From: Streptococcus sanguinis
GTDB lineage: Bacteria > Bacillota > Bacilli > Lactobacillales > Streptococcaceae
Length of the DNA: 64,000 nucleotides
NCBI RefSeq assembly: GCF_001078705.1
Contig: NZ_CDMW01000001.1
Span: 563,106-627,105 of the forward strand
Direction: 5' to 3'
The notes under the pieces are model-generated. The model did not search any database. It had not been told where the DNA came from and saw only the letters and a list, made by a program, of their open reading frames with translations. Shown here piece by piece: positions 2,927 to 64,000 of this stretch. How positions within the stretch are numbered: the first letter of the stretch is position 1; each line of letters opens with the position of its first letter. The position numbers and the translations under genes are program-made.

Positions 2927-4000
2927 ATGGCAGATAAGATTGTATTTGAGAAAGGGCGATTGCTGGTACCGGATGCTCCTATTATTCCTTACATCCAAGG
3001 TGATGGGATTGGGGTTGATATCTGGCGAAATACCCAGCTGGTCTTTGATAAGGCTGTAGAAAAGGCTTATGGTGGCCAGAGAAAGGTTGTTTGGAAGGAA
3101 GTTTTGGCTGGGAAAAAAGCGGCGGACCTGACGGGTAACTGGCTACCGGATGAAACACTGACAACGATTAAGAGTCATCTAGTGGCTATTAAGGGCCCCC
3201 TAGAAACCCCAGTCGGAGAAGGGATTCGTTCCTTGAATGTGGCTTTGAGACAGGAATTGGACCTTTACACTTGCCTGCGGCCGGTTCGTTATTTCAAGGG
3301 AGTTCCCAGTCCGCTCAAGCACCCAGAGAAGACTGATATCACGATTTTTAGGGAAAATACAGAGGACATCTATGCAGGGATTGAGTGGGAGAGTGGAACG
3401 GCTGAAGTCCAAAAAGTTATCGATTTCCTGCAGAAGAATATGCAGGTTGACAAGATTCGCTTTCCAGAAAGCTCTGCTATTGGGATCAAGCCTATCTCTA
3501 AGCAGGGCAGTGAGCGGCTGATACGGGCAGCCATTGACTACGCGTTAGCAAAAGGCCTGACGCGGGTAACACTGGTCCACAAGGGCAATATCCAGAAATT
3601 TACAGAGGGCGGCTTTCGGAAATGGGGCTATGAACTAGCTCAAAGAGAGTATGCGAACGAGCTTGCTGCTGGGAAATTAGTCATTCAGGACGTCATTGCG
3701 CCAGGAGCCAATATCAATTACGAGACTGGTCATGCTATTTTTGAAGCAACTCACGGGACGGCGCCAGATATAGCGGGTCAAAATAAGGCTAATCCTTGTT
3801 CTCTTCTCTTATCAGGAGCCATGCTCTTTGATTATATTGGTTGGCCGGAGGTCTCTCATCTCCTGACTAAGGCTATTGAGAAGGCTCTTTTTGAGCAAAA
3901 AGTGACAGGCGATTTTGCCAGTCAGCTGGAAGGAGTAGCAGCTTTGACCACTAGTCAATTTGCTGAGGAGTTGCTGGCTAATATAGAGAAGTGTCTATAA
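2927..4000 (+). CDS. icd: NADP-type isocitrate dehydrogenase with probable internal deletion
   Basis: Icd oxidatively decarboxylates isocitrate to 2-oxoglutarate. The ATG at 2927 is chosen because GGAAGGAG lies just upstream; an in-frame upstream start would sit inside citZ. The N-terminal half is normal ([11 protein letters not shown]; substrate-loop serine in SLNVALRQE near residue 102; [15 protein letters not shown]). The C-terminal part [12 protein letters not shown] is also present. However, the text runs VIQDVIA directly into PGANINYE at residues 258/259. In family members I recall, about 40 residues lie here and carry the Mg-binding aspartates (E. coli Asp283, Asp307, Asp311; motif NGDYISDA). 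The product is 357 residues, against about 393 usual in streptococci. The frame is kept, so it would be made but is probably inactive. Confidence 0.85.
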
Positions 4001-58749: not shown

Positions 58750-58871
58750 TGTGGAATAGAGTTTAAATACCAAACTGCTTTTCTGATCTTTCGAAAGCCA
58801 GCAGTTTCAAATTCTTGTGAAAGTGTTTTCCAGATGGTATAATGAGCTATCAAATGAAAAGAGGTTTCCTT

Positions 58872-59759
58872 ATGTCTAAAGTCCTATTAATTGTCAACCC
58901 TAGCTCGGGAGGAGAAAAAGCCAAGTCCTATGAAGACTTGGCGAGGGAAAAGCTGGCAGAATGTTTCGATGAGGTAGTGGTCAAGCATACTGAAAAAGGC
59001 GGAGACGCAGCAGCTTTTGCTAAGCAAGCGGCAGAAGACCATTATGATAGCGTCTTTGTCATGGGTGGCGATGGAACGGTTAATGAAGGAATCAGCGGCC
59101 TGGCTGAACTAGACTATCGTCCGACCTTTGGTTTCTTTCCACTTGGTACAGTCAATGACTTGGCGCGGGCTCTCGGCATTCCTCTAGATGCTGAAGAAGC
59201 CATCCAGAATCTGGATATCAACAAAGTCAAGCCACTTGATATCGGCAAGATTAATGACCAGTACTTTATGAATGTGGTTGCCATTGGAACTATTCCAGAG
59301 TCGATTAACAACGTAGATTCAGAAGACAAGACCAAGTGGGGTAAGTTTGCCTACTTTATCTCAGGATTCAAGCAGTTGATGGATACTAGTTTTTACGAAT
59401 TTCACTTGAAGATTGATGGAGAAGAGCGTACGATAAAGAGCAGCACACTCTTGATTGGCTCTACCAACTCAATCGGAGGTTTCGAGAGCATTCTCCCTGA
59501 AGCCACTGTCAATGACGGCTTGCTCCATCTTTTGTACCTTAAGGATAAAAATCTCTTGGATACCTTGGTTTCTGTGCCGGATTTGATTTCGGGCAATGGA
59601 GAAGAAAGTGATAATATCGAGTATCTGACCTTTAAGGAAATCACAGTTGAGTTGGCTGATGACAAGGCAGAGCTCAGCGTCAATGTTGACGGAGATGAGG
59701 GAGACCAATTGCCAGTAACGATTCGTGTCTTGCCATCTCATCTGAATGTGTATTACTAG
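58872..59759 (+). CDS. diacylglycerol kinase-family lipid kinase
   Basis: 295 residues from the ATG at 58872 (SD AGAGGT). The DAGK catalytic motif is MGGDGTVNEGISGL, preceded by LIVNPSSGGEKA and followed by FPLGTVNDLARALG. This is the DgkB/YegS-type fold, which recycles diacylglycerol in Gram-positive bacteria. It is monocistronic with its own terminator. Confidence 0.88.
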   Translation: MSKVLLIVNPSSGGEKAKSYEDLAREKLAECFDEVVVKHTEKGGDAAAFAKQAAEDHYDSVFVMGGDGTVNEGISGLAELDYRPTFGFFPLGTVNDLARALGIPLDAEEAIQNLDINKVKPLDIGKINDQYFMNVVAIGTIPESINNVDSEDKTKWGKFAYFISGFKQLMDTSFYEFHLKIDGEERTIKSSTLLIGSTNSIGGFESILPEATVNDGLLHLLYLKDKNLLDTLVSVPDLISGNGEESDNIEYLTFKEITVELADDKAELSVNVDGDEGDQLPVTIRVLPSHLNVYY

Positions 59760-59877: not shown

Positions 59878-59978
59878 GGCGGACGTCAGCGATCTCCTGC
59901 AGAGTTCCATGACTAGCTATTGAGCCTAAGGTCTCAATAGCTCCGCTCTACCTAACTGTTGCAACAGTTAGGTAGATT
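59878..59978. repeat. BOX-like intergenic palindromic element
   Basis: The 350-base gap contains an element starting GGCGGACGTCAGCG. It has a ten-base inverted repeat AGCTATTGAG/CTCAATAGCT (59915-59924, 59933-59942) and a perfect 28-base palindrome centred at 59961 (arms CTACCTAACTGTTG, 59948-59961, and its complement). The layout, a CGTCAGCG-containing head followed by strong hairpins, recalls streptococcal BOX elements, but only one copy is in the window. Confidence 0.5.
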
Positions 59979-60047: not shown

Positions 60048-60111
60048 AAATCTAGAATAACATGATAACATAAGCAAAAGTTTCCTGATTTATTTGGGAG
60101 GGGAATTGACG

Positions 60112-61047
60112 ATGCAAGGAAAAGAATTTGGACAGCATTTGAAACAGCTTCGATTAAATAGGGGCTGGACAAAGGAACAGCTATGTGGTGATGAGTCAAA
60201 GCTTTCTATACGGCAGTTAACGCGTTTGGAGTCCGGCATTTCCCAGCCGACTCTCTCTACTTTAGAATATCTTGCTTCCTGTCTAGAGGTTGATTTGGCA
60301 ACCTTGACAGGAAGTAAAAAAGAAGATGCCGCTCTACCTGCTGATTACGAGCGCTTGAAGTATAAGCTGATTCGGACGACCACTTATGGCAATACCAAAG
60401 TCTTGTCCGAATTGGAGCATATCATAGATGAGATTTTTGAAGTTTATTATGATGATTTGCCAGAAGCTGAGCAGAATGTAATGGATATCTTGCAATCAAA
60501 GATTTATACCTATACTTCTGAGAATTTCCATAAGTATGGAATGACTCTCTTTGCCCAGCATTTGGATGATTTACAGAGTAAAAAGCATTATGACGTGAAT
60601 GATTTACTCTACATCCAGCTCTATCAGATCTATGTGGGAGATGAAGAGGAGATTCGGTCATCTAAGTTTGATAAGGAATTATATACAAGAATCGCTCGGC
60701 GATTACTGCAGTCGGTTGACTATATTCCGAATGAATATCTCTTTCTCATGCGAGATGCTCTACTGACAATCCCAGGTATTGAGTGCGAGCGAAAAGAGTT
60801 CATTTATACAAAAGATACACTCAACAAACTTAATATAATCATGGAATTGACAGAGGATTATCAAAAGAAACCGCTGATAAGAATGTTAGAGGGAGAATAT
60901 GAGCTTTTTGTACACAAGGACGAGAAAAAGGCTCAACAATACTACGAAGAGGGACTGACGCTGGCGAAATTGTTAGGTCATACTTTTCTATCTAAAAAAA
61001 TGTCTGAGGAGTGGAATAAAGAACTTCAAATCTATCATCAAGGCTAA
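60112..61047 (+). CDS. XRE-TPR transcriptional regulator, RRNPP-type (TprA/PlcR-like)
   Basis: 311 residues from the ATG at 60112 (SD GGGAGGGG). Residues about 6-62 form an XRE helix-turn-helix (LKQLRLNRGWTKEQLCG, LSIRQLTRLESG). The remaining 240 residues are helical with TPR-like pairs, as in PlcR, PrgX, TprA and Rgg proteins that bind imported peptides. It is followed by its own terminator, then a 15-codon hydrophobic ORF and a secreted wall hydrolase. By analogy, these are likely ligand precursor and target; this is inference. Confidence 0.8.
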   Translation: MQGKEFGQHLKQLRLNRGWTKEQLCGDESKLSIRQLTRLESGISQPTLSTLEYLASCLEVDLATLTGSKKEDAALPADYERLKYKLIRTTTYGNTKVLSELEHIIDEIFEVYYDDLPEAEQNVMDILQSKIYTYTSENFHKYGMTLFAQHLDDLQSKKHYDVNDLLYIQLYQIYVGDEEEIRSSKFDKELYTRIARRLLQSVDYIPNEYLFLMRDALLTIPGIECERKEFIYTKDTLNKLNIIMELTEDYQKKPLIRMLEGEYELFVHKDEKKAQQYYEEGLTLAKLLGHTFLSKKMSEEWNKELQIYHQG

Positions 61048-61048
61048 T

Positions 61049-61074
61049 AGGACATCTATGTCCTGTTTTTTATT
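61049..61074 (+). terminator. terminator after the XRE-TPR regulator
   Basis: AGGACAT-CT-ATGTCCT followed by T-rich sequence. It separates the regulator from the peptide ORF, which has its own TATAAT at 61087-61092. Confidence 0.7.
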
Positions 61075-61132
61075 TGTAATTGAGTCTATAATTGAAACAT
61101 GGAAAAAGTTAAATAGGAAAGGAGAGAATCAC

Positions 61133-61180
61133 ATGTTTAGGATTTCTTATTATCTCGCCATGATTTGGTTTTGGCTTTAG
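61133..61180 (+). CDS. 15-residue hydrophobic peptide, candidate signalling peptide
   Basis: Reads MFRISYYLAMIWFWL. The SD GGAGAG seven bases upstream is good and a TATAAT lies 40 bases before it. The peptide has one basic residue at position 3, then an aromatic hydrophobic stretch with a Trp-Phe-Trp end, similar in style to short hydrophobic or WW-type streptococcal pheromone precursors. It lies between the RRNPP-type regulator and the CHAP hydrolase. It could instead be a translated leader of the hydrolase mRNA, or chance. Confidence 0.5.
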   Translation: MFRISYYLAMIWFWL

Positions 61181-61228
61181 GAAATTAAATGTTGTCATGC
61201 ACAAAGATTAATAAAGGGAGCAAATAAA

Positions 61229-63640
61229 ATGAAAAATCAATTTTTTAACAAGCAGGTTCAACGCTTTTCTATTCGTAAATATTCTCTAGGAGCAGTTTCA
61301 GTGCTTCTAGGAACATTATTATTTGCAGGGACTCAAACAGTTGCTGCTGATCAAGTAATTTCGCCAACTGGTACTGATTCAGTAGTTTCTACAGCACCTT
61401 CTGACATAGCAGTGGATACAAATCAGAGTGTTTCAGAAAAGTCAGATGCAACAGTAAGTTCTGATATTGAATCGGAAACAAAAAATGCTGTAAATAACAA
61501 TTTAGTTAGTATTGAAAATGGAGTAACTTCTAAAGTTCCTGAACCACTAGAAACTGAAAATAAAGCGACAAATGCAAATGATATTCCAATCAGCACTGAG
61601 CCTGTTTCTGATCAAACGTCAACAGTTAATGAAAAACAGAAAACTGTAGAAGTAAATCCAGTTATAGATGATCCTACTAATCCTAAACATTTAGTAACAC
61701 GTGGCTATGCCGCTTCGAATCTAGATAAGCCAGCAACCTCAATTGTTAATGATGTCAGCCGTCGCCGTGCGACTAAAGAAGAAAAAACAACTCTCAAAAC
61801 AACTGTTGGTAAAGTTGCAAACGGGACTGGACATACGACTTTACTAGCTACAGGGAATGGATCAATCGCTCGGGGCGATGACTATCCGGCTAGATTTAAA
61901 AACGGAAGCATTGATGACTGGAGGTTTTATGTAAATGAATGTACTTCATTTGTGGCATATCGCTTAAGCTCTGTAAATCATTATGAAATTGCACCTGCTT
62001 ATGGTAATGGAGGAGAGTGGGGTTATCACGCACGGCGGGATGGAATCAGAGTTGATAACAAACCAGCTCTCGGCTCAGTTGCATGGTATGATAATCAATA
62101 TAAGCATGTTGCCTGGGTTTCAAATGTATTGGGAGATAATGTAGAAATTGAAGAATATAATTGGTTCGGAGATCATCGATATCATCGACAAATTGTACAT
62201 AAAAGTACAATTACCGGTTTCATTCATTTCAAAGATATTGCTGGAGGTTCTTCTAATCCAACTCCCCAACCTTCAGATAACCGAGGAATCCCTGCCAGTG
62301 GAGTATATCACTTCACTCAAAGAGCCTCCATTAAAGCTGAACCTAAGATGTCTAGTCCTGAATTAGCTTATTATGATGCAGGACAAACTGTTACATATGA
62401 TCGCAAATTGGAAGCAGATGGCCATCAATGGATTAGCTATCTCTCCTTTGCTGGAAATCGTAGATATATTGCCATTGGAGTAACAAAGCCAAAGGCTCCT
62501 TTAAAGGGAACCTTGACTATCCAAAACAATAATGCTCAGACAGGGACTTTTGATGTCATTGTATCTGATGTCTCTAGCCCGTATGGTGTGAAAGAAGTGA
62601 AATTACCAACTTGGTCAAGTGAAAATGGACAAGATGATATTGTTTGGTACACTGCTGCTAAACAGCCTAATGGAACATATAAAATAACTGTCAATGCAAA
62701 TAAACATAAAGGTTCTACAGGAGAGTATAATATCCATCTATATTATGTTCAAAATAATGGAGAAATGGTTGGAGCTGGGGGAACGAAGACTACCGTTTCT
62801 ATTAAGAAGCCTGAAGGGAAAATTACTATTCAAAATAATAATCCAAAAACAGGAACCTTTGATGTAGTTATATCTAACATTTCCAATCTTGGTGGTGTAA
62901 AAGAAGTAAAAGTACCTATATGGTCTAGTGCGAATGATCAAGATGATATTATTTGGTATACTCCTAAAAGACAATCGGATGGCACTTACAAATTGACAAT
63001 AAAGGCTAGCGATCATAAATATTCCACTGGAAAATATAATGTGCATTTATACTATGTTCAAAATAATGGCCAAATGATTTGTGTAACAGGAACGACGACA
63101 GAAGTCTCCTTGGATAAGGAATTAATCCGGCCGACAGGAACTATTACTATTCGGAATAATACTTCAAAGACAGGTACCTTTGATATTATTGTGTCTAATG
63201 TTTCTAATCCTGGTGGTGTAAAAGAAGTAAAGGTACCTACATGGTCTGCTGCCAATGACCAAGATGACGTGGTTTGGTACACTGCTAGCAAGCAACCAGA
63301 TGGGACTTACAAACAGACTGTTAAAGTAAGTGATCATAAAAATTCCACAGGGAAATACAACGTCCACCTGTACTACGTTCAGGATGACGGAAAACTTGTA
63401 GGTGCCGGCTCAGCTACTACGGAAGTCTCATTACCAGCTATATCTATTCCATCAAAAGGGAATTACGTTTTTCAAGGCTATGCTTCTATTCGGTCTGAAG
63501 CTAAAATATCAAGTCCAGAACTAGCAAACTTTGACAAAGGGAGCACAGTCTTTTATGATCAAACTTTTATTGCAGATGGCCATCAGTGGATTAGCTATGT
63601 TGGGTATAGTGGTAGTCGTCGTTATGTGGCAATAAATTAA
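61229..63640 (+). CDS. secreted CHAP-domain cell-wall hydrolase with GBS Bsp-like repeats
   Basis: 803 residues. A YSIRK-type signal peptide (FSIRKYSLGAVSVLLG, 13-28) is cleaved near AADQ (40-41). A low-complexity Ser/Thr/Glu region spans about 42-190. The CHAP domain (about 215-336) has catalytic Cys238 (NECTSFVAYRL) and His293 (KHVAWVSN). An SH3-like domain (353-417), three Bsp-like repeats (about 426-526, 529-628, 636-735) and a second SH3-like domain (744-803) follow. No LPXTG is present, so wall binding is non-covalent. It resembles streptococcal murein hydrolases and fratricins. Confidence 0.88.
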   Translation: MKNQFFNKQVQRFSIRKYSLGAVSVLLGTLLFAGTQTVAADQVISPTGTDSVVSTAPSDIAVDTNQSVSEKSDATVSSDIESETKNAVNNNLVSIENGVTSKVPEPLETENKATNANDIPISTEPVSDQTSTVNEKQKTVEVNPVIDDPTNPKHLVTRGYAASNLDKPATSIVNDVSRRRATKEEKTTLKTTVGKVANGTGHTTLLATGNGSIARGDDYPARFKNGSIDDWRFYVNECTSFVAYRLSSVNHYEIAPAYGNGGEWGYHARRDGIRVDNKPALGSVAWYDNQYKHVAWVSNVLGDNVEIEEYNWFGDHRYHRQIVHKSTITGFIHFKDIAGGSSNPTPQPSDNRGIPASGVYHFTQRASIKAEPKMSSPELAYYDAGQTVTYDRKLEADGHQWISYLSFAGNRRYIAIGVTKPKAPLKGTLTIQNNNAQTGTFDVIVSDVSSPYGVKEVKLPTWSSENGQDDIVWYTAAKQPNGTYKITVNANKHKGSTGEYNIHLYYVQNNGEMVGAGGTKTTVSIKKPEGKITIQNNNPKTGTFDVVISNISNLGGVKEVKVPIWSSANDQDDIIWYTPKRQSDGTYKLTIKASDHKYSTGKYNVHLYYVQNNGQMICVTGTTTEVSLDKELIRPTGTITIRNNTSKTGTFDIIVSNVSNPGGVKEVKVPTWSAANDQDDVVWYTASKQPDGTYKQTVKVSDHKNSTGKYNVHLYYVQDDGKLVGAGSATTEVSLPAISIPSKGNYVFQGYASIRSEAKISSPELANFDKGSTVFYDQTFIADGHQWISYVGYSGSRRYVAIN

Positions 63641-63664: not shown

Positions 63665-63693
63665 TTGATTTTATTGATTTAAAATGTTACAAT
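63665..63693 (+). promoter_or_regulatory. promoter of the terminal lipoprotein gene
   Basis: TTGATT and TACAAT are separated by 17 bases, about 40 bases before the start codon. Confidence 0.55.
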
Positions 63694-63734: not shown

Positions 63735-64000
63735 ATGAAAATGCAAAAATTACTGCTTACTAGTACAACGCTTGTTGCGTCCGTTTTCTTACTTATTTCT
63801 TGTGGCAAACAGCAGGAGAAGCAGCTACCTCAAAGTAGTAGCTCTAGTCAAACAGTTCAAACTTCTAAATCAGATGACAAATCTGAAGCGAAAGTTGTTC
63901 AATCAGCTAGCCAAGATGAAACTGATGTGGCATCGGCATCTTCTGAAGCTCAGCCTAAAAATGAAACAAAGTCTGACACGAAAGACCCAGCCACTCCAGC
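63735..64000 (+). CDS. Ser-rich lipoprotein, 3'-truncated by window edge
   Basis: Starts after AGGAGG and reads MKMQKLLLTSTTLVASVFLL, with lipobox LISC, so the mature protein is a membrane lipoprotein. The visible 60 residues after it are a Ser/Gln/Lys/Glu-rich linker with no domain yet. The frame is open to the last base. A globular domain presumably lies beyond the window, so function cannot be given. Confidence 0.8.
   Translation, partial: MKMQKLLLTSTTLVASVFLLISCGKQQEKQLPQSSSSSQTVQTSKSDDKSEAKVVQSASQDETDVASASSEAQPKNETKSDTKDPATP

Follow-up and report, generated by a model that had tools for sequence, protein, structure and literature searches.

The 64,000-nucleotide (nt) stretch of Streptococcus sanguinis DNA analysed here (the window; bases 563106-627105 of a source genome, G000, that forms a single 2.31-Mb contig) carries a cassette which, judged by its sequence, is ComRS-like but not ComRS proper. 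We propose that a paralogue of the regulator ComR, a ComS-like peptide and a ComR-box promoter would form a local switch driving a secreted cell-wall hydrolase, and we give this reading a probability of roughly two in three. ComRS, made up of ComR and ComS/XIP, is the competence system of the mutans, bovis, pyogenic, suis and salivarius streptococci. The sequence supports the proposal through the family of the regulator, the putative operator, the fixed geometry of the promoter, its uniqueness in the genome and the order of the genes. That order had been pointed out in a sequence-only reading of the same DNA and is present as described there: a regulator, a 15-codon open reading frame (ORF) and a YSIRK-CHAP hydrolase, all on the plus strand, with a TATAAT and a good Shine-Dalgarno sequence before the short ORF and 48 nt separating its stop from the hydrolase start. 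The elements of the cassette, with lengths of proteins in amino acids (aa), are these:

60112..61047, plus strand: ComR-family regulator (helix-turn-helix and ComR_TPR domains), 311 aa, identified by Pfam, structure match and tree
61050..61063, no strand: putative operator, ComR-box GGACATCTATGTCC, the sole exact GGACATNNATGTCC in the 2.31-Mb genome
61064..61086, plus strand: T-rich spacer of 23 nt from ComR-box to -10 element, placed by the spacing in relatives
61087..61092, plus strand: -10 element TATAAT, found by a scan for the pattern box + N23 + TATAAT
61120..61126, plus strand: Shine-Dalgarno sequence AGGAGAG of the peptide ORF, ending 6 nt 5' of its ATG
61133..61180 (stop included), plus strand: ComS-like 15-codon ORF MFRISYYLAMIWFWL, identical in DNA in L003 (G145) and L004 (G063)
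61229..63640, plus strand: secreted YSIRK-CHAP-SH3_5-3xGBS_Bsp-SH3_5 wall hydrolase, 803 aa, identified by Pfam

The ComR-box promoter

A scan of the genome for the ComR-box followed by N23 and TATAAT gave one site with no mismatch and three with 3 mismatches, while the reversed pattern, used as a control in the same scan, gave no perfect site and one with 3 mismatches. G145, G063, G182 and G257 each have one perfect copy of this arrangement directly behind the regulator. In the rows for which the ground behind ComR-family genes was searched by script, box plus -10 was found in 26 of 32; 21 of these have a spacing of 23 nt, two have 22, two 20 and one 21. The six rows without it comprise one truncated regulator, one broken regulator with its box further on, and four regulators that stand first in a tandem pair. 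The same ComR-box element lies behind the comR genes of relatives, with the spacing seen in their comR-comS loci, and the short ORF of the window therefore occupies, by its sequence context, the comS position behind a ComR-type promoter.

Published ComR-type promoters consist of a dyad, a T-rich spacer and a -10 element, with equal spacer length in all promoters but one (PMC6703854), and have a -10 without a -35 (PMC4072589). A general promoter scan missed the TATAAT at 61087 because it has no -35 match there, which is usual for promoters of this type (PMC4072589). The search pattern published for ComR-boxes, GACA N4 TGTCCTG N20 TA (PMC4072589), fits the window in its core, the distance from TGTCCTG to TATAAT being 21 bases rather than 20, as at most of the loci measured. 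The sequence-only reading had given the regulator its own terminator at 61046-61067 (stem-loop AATAGGACATCTATGTCCTGTT plus a T run); we now read this element as the ComR-box instead, which may double as a terminator, a possible stem-loop within comR-boxes having been noted before (PMC4072589). A terminator scan lends the older reading no support, since it found 3 such sites where 2.9 were expected. As the genome holds no second exact ComR-box, no link to comX was found, although this search neither located comX nor covered the surroundings of the three weaker sites.

A regulator of the ComR branch

Family match, structure match and phylogeny place the regulator in the ComR branch of the RRNPP superfamily, which bears out, and narrows, its earlier description as RRNPP-type. 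It matches Pfam ComR_TPR with an E-value of 4.1e-59 (200.4 bits; cut-off 26.5), its closest solved structure is S. suis ComR (5fd4, E 1.3e-53), and within its own genome it is the sole match at E <= 1e-10. ComR_TPR is the TPR family matched and no Rgg family is among its Pfam and NCBIfam matches, on which ground membership of the Rgg/SHP systems was rejected. A mechanical ORF list gives the regulator a longer start, a TTG at 60094.

Relatives were compared using one genome per GTDB species, and regulators matching at E <= 1e-64 were found in 12 of the 284 Streptococcus genomes searched. Five are full-length and S. sanguinis-like, namely that of G000 and those of G145, G063, G257 and G182 at 94-96% identity; more distant ones, at 45-51% identity, are found in G040, G180, G090, G083, G053 (two copies) and G113, where the regulator is broken. 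The twelfth, in G035, is truncated. The named strains nearest to the window at this locus all belong to S. sanguinis, namely BCC04, BCC31 and SK1 = NCTC 7863. In a tree of 41 ComR-family rows, from which two short and 13 duplicate rows had been dropped and whose midpoint root serves for drawing only, the window-type regulators form one clade with support 99/98, the tool warning of long branches that meet at L009 and the L008 group.

In SK1 = NCTC 7863 (G035) the regulator frame is only 159 aa long (L049, reverse complement 3016-3495), and the remaining cassette is gone, with an unrelated 433-aa ORF in its place. In G053 (L054) the ComR paralogue, ComR-box and lipoprotein are tandemly duplicated, and neither peptide nor hydrolase is found at the locus.

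The putative peptide gene

The short ORF MFRISYYLAMIWFWL has an end rich in tryptophan (Trp), WFWL, in which the Trp residues are not side by side as they are in the WW of type II XIPs. The 64-kb window has 42 ORFs that encode 10-25 aa and start with ATG behind a Shine-Dalgarno sequence (24 on the plus and 18 on the minus strand); only this one has at least two Trp among its final six residues. Dinucleotide shuffling of 61093-61228, repeated 20,000 times, produced an ORF ending with at least two Trp in 14 cases, one with at least one Trp at its end in 308 and any such short ORF in 2,427. At the comS position of their comR-type loci, relatives encode for example MFSILTSILMGLDWWGL or MFRFLTGLSWWGL. 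The sequence-only reading had judged the WFWL end unlike XIP, and this stands as far as the separated tryptophans and the replacement of XIP-contacting residues in the regulator (see below) are concerned, while the position, the promoter and the Trp-rich end are ComS-like.

When the 230 nt behind the box were scanned in relatives for ORFs of 7-45 aa with a Trp among the last six residues, such an ORF was found in 6 of the 12 rows of the clade having a box, starting 63-69 nt after it. The 15-codon ORF is identical in G000, G145 and G063, whereas the ORF of G090, MNFWCLLSAWFKF, bears Trp and has a ribosome site but differs in sequence. G040 has a GTG-started candidate, MHALIEWVNMIN, without a ribosome site by the test of the script, and an earlier ATG is also possible there. 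An attenuator or leader-RNA function of the region was considered and rejected, as the leader is not specially structured and folds worse than the shuffle mean (z +1.43).

The wall hydrolase

According to Pfam the hydrolase consists of a YSIRK signal, a CHAP domain (residues 230-311), an SH3_5 domain, three GBS_Bsp-like repeats behind the CHAP domain and a second SH3_5; no LPXTG was seen at its end. Judged by eye, the CHAP domain retains the stretches with Cys, His and acidic/Asn residues that are typical of this fold. Five CHAP proteins exceed the cut-off in the genome, this being one of them. The promoter scan gave no site between peptide and hydrolase, in keeping with the earlier remark that the hydrolase has no separate visible promoter, and peptide and hydrolase are apparently read in one transcript. 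Among 30 relatives of the hydrolase that were fetched, only the copies of the window, G145, G063 and G180 have a ComR-box within 320 nt upstream; a second hydrolase copy of G090, outside those 30, has one as well.

The gene of the competence hydrolase LytF has a SigX box. Control of the window hydrolase by SigX was rejected, since no com-box TACGAATA lies within 320 nt upstream of it; a TACGAATA at 61270 is inside the hydrolase gene on the opposite strand. Membership of the LytF fratricins was likewise rejected in view of the CHAP domain at 230-311, the Bsp repeats behind it and the missing TACGAATA upstream, LytF having its Bsp repeats N-terminal and its CHAP domain C-terminal (PMC13192262). 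The match to the ScrM model NF052572 reaches 318.1 bits where 400 are needed, and membership of that equivalog was rejected too.

Similar hydrolases are found in other surroundings. In G171 (L189 273-3401, L147 810-4395) a YSIRK-CHAP hydrolase of 63% identity, after which come two lipoproteins, is preceded by a response regulator of the LytTR type and a kinase with a GHKL domain, an integrase-core gene lying between them; it looks as though the hydrolase module had been attached to another sensing system. A similar hydrolase of G058 (L190 1753-3793, minus strand) adjoins a membrane-anchored protein and is preceded by a two-component system whose response regulator is of the Trans_reg_C type.

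Proposed mechanism

We suggest that the ComR paralogue would bind the ComR-box just behind its own gene, that its activator would most likely be the mature C-terminal part of MFRISYYLAMIWFWL, and that the active regulator would drive transcription from the -10 element 23 nt beyond the box. The messenger RNA (mRNA) would cover the peptide, the secreted CHAP hydrolase and perhaps the lipoprotein that follows, and production of the peptide would feed back positively. Export of the peptide, its re-import through Opp/Ami, binding as a ligand and activation would be expected from the biology of ComRS; six Opp-type binding proteins exceed the cut-off in the genome. With less support, the output would be lysis of neighbours, the downstream lipoprotein protecting the producer. 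The hydrolase switch would probably serve as a cell-density signal, and the cassette is possibly a weapon of strain against strain.

Ligand pocket, gating and rival explanations

Residues of the regulators were compared in an alignment of the 12 clade rows with 28 other ComR-family rows, positions being mapped through alignments of the solved ComRs. The arginines equivalent to R35 and R39, which in S. thermophilus ComR contact the GACA of ComR-boxes (PMC5131891), are conserved in 40 of 40 rows, and E117, the partner of R39, is retained in the five S. sanguinis rows. The ligand pocket is where the observations begin to weigh against the proposed switch. At the position that clamps the C-terminus of the pheromone (K100 of S. 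thermophilus ComR, R103 of S. suis ComR) all 12 clade rows have L or M, and 25 of the 28 others have K or R. The position of K260, which is required for XIP binding in S. suis ComR (PMC5131902), is E in all five S. sanguinis rows and K in 28 of 28 others, the remaining clade rows having K in three cases and Q in three, with one row cut short; the window regulator has L101 and E262 at these XIP-binding positions. With the arginines kept and the XIP-binding residues lost, recognition of DNA would be kept and recognition of the ligand must, on this alignment, differ in this clade from that of true ComRs. It is this change of the pocket that speaks most strongly against a plain XIP-like mechanism, and because of it the system is not filed as ComRS proper. 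The position of D147, which sequesters the helix-turn-helix, is acidic in 2 of the 12 clade rows as against 28 of 28 others, and is Q in S. sanguinis. In S. thermophilus ComR the double change E146A/D147A raises activity in the absence of pheromone ~70-fold (PMC5131891); autoinhibition may therefore be weaker in this clade, and gating by a peptide weak or absent.

The distribution of the ORF adds to these reservations. G182 and G257 keep regulator and box and lack the peptide ORF, and in the 230 nt scanned behind the box no Trp-ended ORF was found there or in G083, G113 or either copy of G053. In G180 the ORF is a weak candidate of eight codons, MHYFLWGF, which starts with GTG, has no ribosome site by the test of the script and lies at a distance from the box nearly equal to that in the window. 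Conservation of the ORF in relatives that keep regulator and hydrolase, a check proposed in the sequence-only reading, thus has a divided answer in the four other such relatives: it is identical in G145 and G063, different in G090 and weak in G180. The ORF is invariant across its three genomes and so offers no changes for a codon-level test of selection. A CHAP hydrolase stands at the locus in five of the clade rows (G000, G145, G063, G180 and G090) and in none of the six without a Trp-ended ORF; G040 shows none but has a masked stretch. By this co-occurrence the peptide is linked more closely with the hydrolase than with the regulator, an association that fits a pheromone releasing the hydrolase and a leader ORF as well.

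These points are the substance of a rival explanation, which we regard as unlikely but far from negligible, in which the regulator would activate the operon without the peptide, either constitutively or with another peptide or ligand, as in ScuR and SarF, for which no native peptide is known, and the 15 codons would be only a translated leader of the hydrolase mRNA. Changed pocket and sequestration residues speak for it, as do the six rows with a box and no Trp-ended ORF (one of them the broken G113), and ScuR and SarF have no adjoining short coding sequence (PMC6703854). What argues against it is that the position, start spacing and Trp-rich end of the ORF match the comS of relatives, that such an ORF arose in just 14 of 20,000 shuffles and that the leader RNA is without structure. 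We consider it very improbable that the hydrolase is instead a housekeeping or competence-linked enzyme of the LytF/ScrM kind standing beside an unrelated regulator and a chance short ORF. Its CHAP and SH3 core is related to ScrM and S. sanguinis does employ the hydrolase LytF in competence (PMC13192262), but no TACGAATA is found in the 320 nt upstream, the gene is strain-variable and one of five CHAP genes in the genome, and this hydrolase alone has the ComR-box promoter.

The accessory islet and its downstream genes

The switch proposed above lies in an accessory, strain-variable islet. The lipid kinase at its left border is present at 95% DNA identity or more in 12 S. sanguinis-like genomes, six of which have the islet (one in degraded form), while in the other six the kinase and an opposite-strand gene stand side by side with no islet remnant between them. 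Judged by eye, this right-border gene resembles NrdF. A perfect palindrome of 30 bp (59947-59976; two 15-nt arms, loopless) between the kinase gene and the regulator may be the terminator of the kinase or a small mobile repeat. The remaining features are:

58842..59759, plus strand: YegS/DAGK-type lipid kinase (Pfam DAGK_cat, 1e-34), left islet border, outside the system
61826..62308, plus strand: variable CHAP segment of the hydrolase (aa ~200-360), a diverged allele compared with G145 and G063
63735..64000, plus strand: start of the DUF6287 lipoprotein gene (ORF; DUF6287 4.6e-13), 205 aa, extending past the window end

Downstream of the hydrolase the DUF6287 lipoprotein is followed by a 101-aa protein of no known family, across the window end. 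A promoter-like site at 63665-63693 (9 of 12) precedes the lipoprotein, which may therefore also be expressed alone; in G182 and G257 the ComR-box lies directly before the lipoprotein gene. Searches with the two downstream proteins gave no useful function in the PDB (best E 0.08 for the lipoprotein and 0.015 for the 101-aa protein) and no match in PADLOC. In PHROGs the lipoprotein matched only two families, both weakly and both of unknown function, and Pfam gave one weak family match for the 101-aa protein, in one of nine members (E 0.006). The 101-aa protein (L045 937-1242) has a conserved EHL[ED]EY end in nine aligned clade loci.

Allele divergence and a possible immunity partner

Between the window and G145 the CHAP domain and the C-terminal domain of the lipoprotein, and to a lesser degree its signal region, are diverged alleles, while the 1.3 kb after the CHAP domain are near-identical. 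Synonymous divergence (dS) in the hydrolase is 0.069 for aa 1-190, 1.31 for the CHAP stretch aa 195-345 (73% aa identity) and 0.051 for aa 346-803, the linker, SH3 domains and repeats being 95-99% identical. Along the lipoprotein dS falls from 0.58 over aa 1-33 (48% identity) to 0.22 over aa 34-114 and then rises to 2.03 over aa 115-189 (36% identity), and the regulator, kinase and 101-aa gene have dS of 0.15-0.18. Low identity beyond 64612 in one profile was dismissed as an alignment artefact, as blastn aligns that stretch at 95%. G063 shares both the CHAP and the lipoprotein C-terminal alleles of G145, and the coupled change of alleles rests on one within-species contrast.

Lipoproteins of both types also occur away from the cassette. 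G182 and G257, without a hydrolase at the locus, carry the G145-type end, and the closest outside matches to the window-type end, at 60%, are in G166, G183 and G027 (L183, L184, L185), where two lipoproteins stand in tandem, alike in their N-terminal halves and with alternative domains at the C-terminus, the first having a window-type end and the second a G145-like end (the first copy of G027 is broken). G146 and G008 have the second, G145-like type only. No regulator, hydrolase or ComR-box was found near the lipoproteins of these five genomes in the stretches fetched (7 kb for the first three), and none of the five is among the CHAP matches listed at E <= 1e-45 or 1e-40. At 16 other CHAP loci, hand-picked from the match list and mostly long ORFs, a same-strand small protein with a lipobox or hydrophobic N-terminus (four judged by eye) follows in nine and is not seen in seven.

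A hydrolase/immunity pair with the DUF6287 lipoprotein as candidate immunity protein is, on these sequences, plausible. A more far-reaching version would make the locus a pheromone-gated, strain-variable lysin/immunity cassette, in which the altered-pocket ComR paralogue senses its own peptide, CHAP and DUF6287 C-terminal domains are exchanged as a matched set between oral streptococci, and non-producers carry orphan immunity genes; we offer this tentatively, as a reading less likely than not. We see not quite an even chance that the variation is instead ordinary recombination or antigenic variation of surface proteins, with the lipoprotein a helper of the wall enzyme, an explanation compatible with the switch. 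The distances of CHAP and lipoprotein show no significant correlation over nine pairs (r 0.26, p 0.09; hand-picked loci, with one lipoprotein of several chosen for G090 and G171), and as this falls below the SH3 control (r 0.57) the cross-species test does not support matched pairs. In the same direction point the seven of 16 sampled CHAP loci without an anchored neighbour, the diverged first 33 residues of the lipoprotein (again, 48% identity) and DUF6287 genes that adjoin other wall enzymes too (PMC12282319, one table). Against ordinary variation stand the within-species contrast, in which the most diverged tracts are the catalytic domain and the lipoprotein C-terminal domain, and the orphan lipoproteins that carry both end types in tandem in stretches without hydrolase.

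Relation to known systems and significance

In streptococci without ComCDE, ComRS is regarded as what switches on competence. The cassette resembles ComRS in regulator family, DNA-reading arginines, ComR-box, T-rich spacer, distance to the -10 and a short hydrophobic peptide gene behind the box, and differs from it in the lost XIP-binding residues, in WFW rather than WW and in the wall hydrolase that follows the peptide. S. sanguinis has been placed with ComCDE (PMC13192262), as has the mitis group (PMC5131902). ScuR and SarF of S. salivarius are likewise ComR paralogues that leave comX aside, ScuR driving an antagonism output; unlike the cassette they control an ABC transporter, ScuR also bacteriocin genes, their PsptA box lies nearer the -10 by one nt and no local short ORF was seen (PMC6703854). 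ScrM/ScrI of S. dysgalactiae, which parallel the possible output of the cassette, and LytF/CbpD are also secreted streptococcal wall hydrolases linked to signalling, ScrM with an immunity partner, but are expressed in competence (PMC13192262), whereas the window hydrolase has a ComR-box promoter, a YSIRK signal, a central CHAP domain, Bsp repeats and a second SH3. The RopB/LCP (SIP)-SpeB system of S. pyogenes also sets a regulator, a tiny peptide gene and a secreted enzyme side by side, yet belongs to the Rgg branch and has a leaderless peptide of 8-10 aa generally divergent from the regulator (PMC13361665); membership was rejected as the window peptide has 15 codons on the strand of the regulator. 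Among the matches listed in a search of open-licence PMC articles, available in part, no published ComR-type regulator of a hydrolase in sanguinis-group streptococci was found.

If the proposed switch is real, the same receptor design would have been re-used for another output, wall lysis, in a species of the ComCDE type, and further peptide codes would be possible in mixed plaque communities. In the altered pocket nature provides a test case for the evolution of ComR specificity. Should the lipoprotein be an immunity protein, the cassette would be a defined, removable model of quorum-controlled antagonism between strains, and the full lysin/immunity cassette, if true, would amount to quorum-controlled kin discrimination separate from competence.

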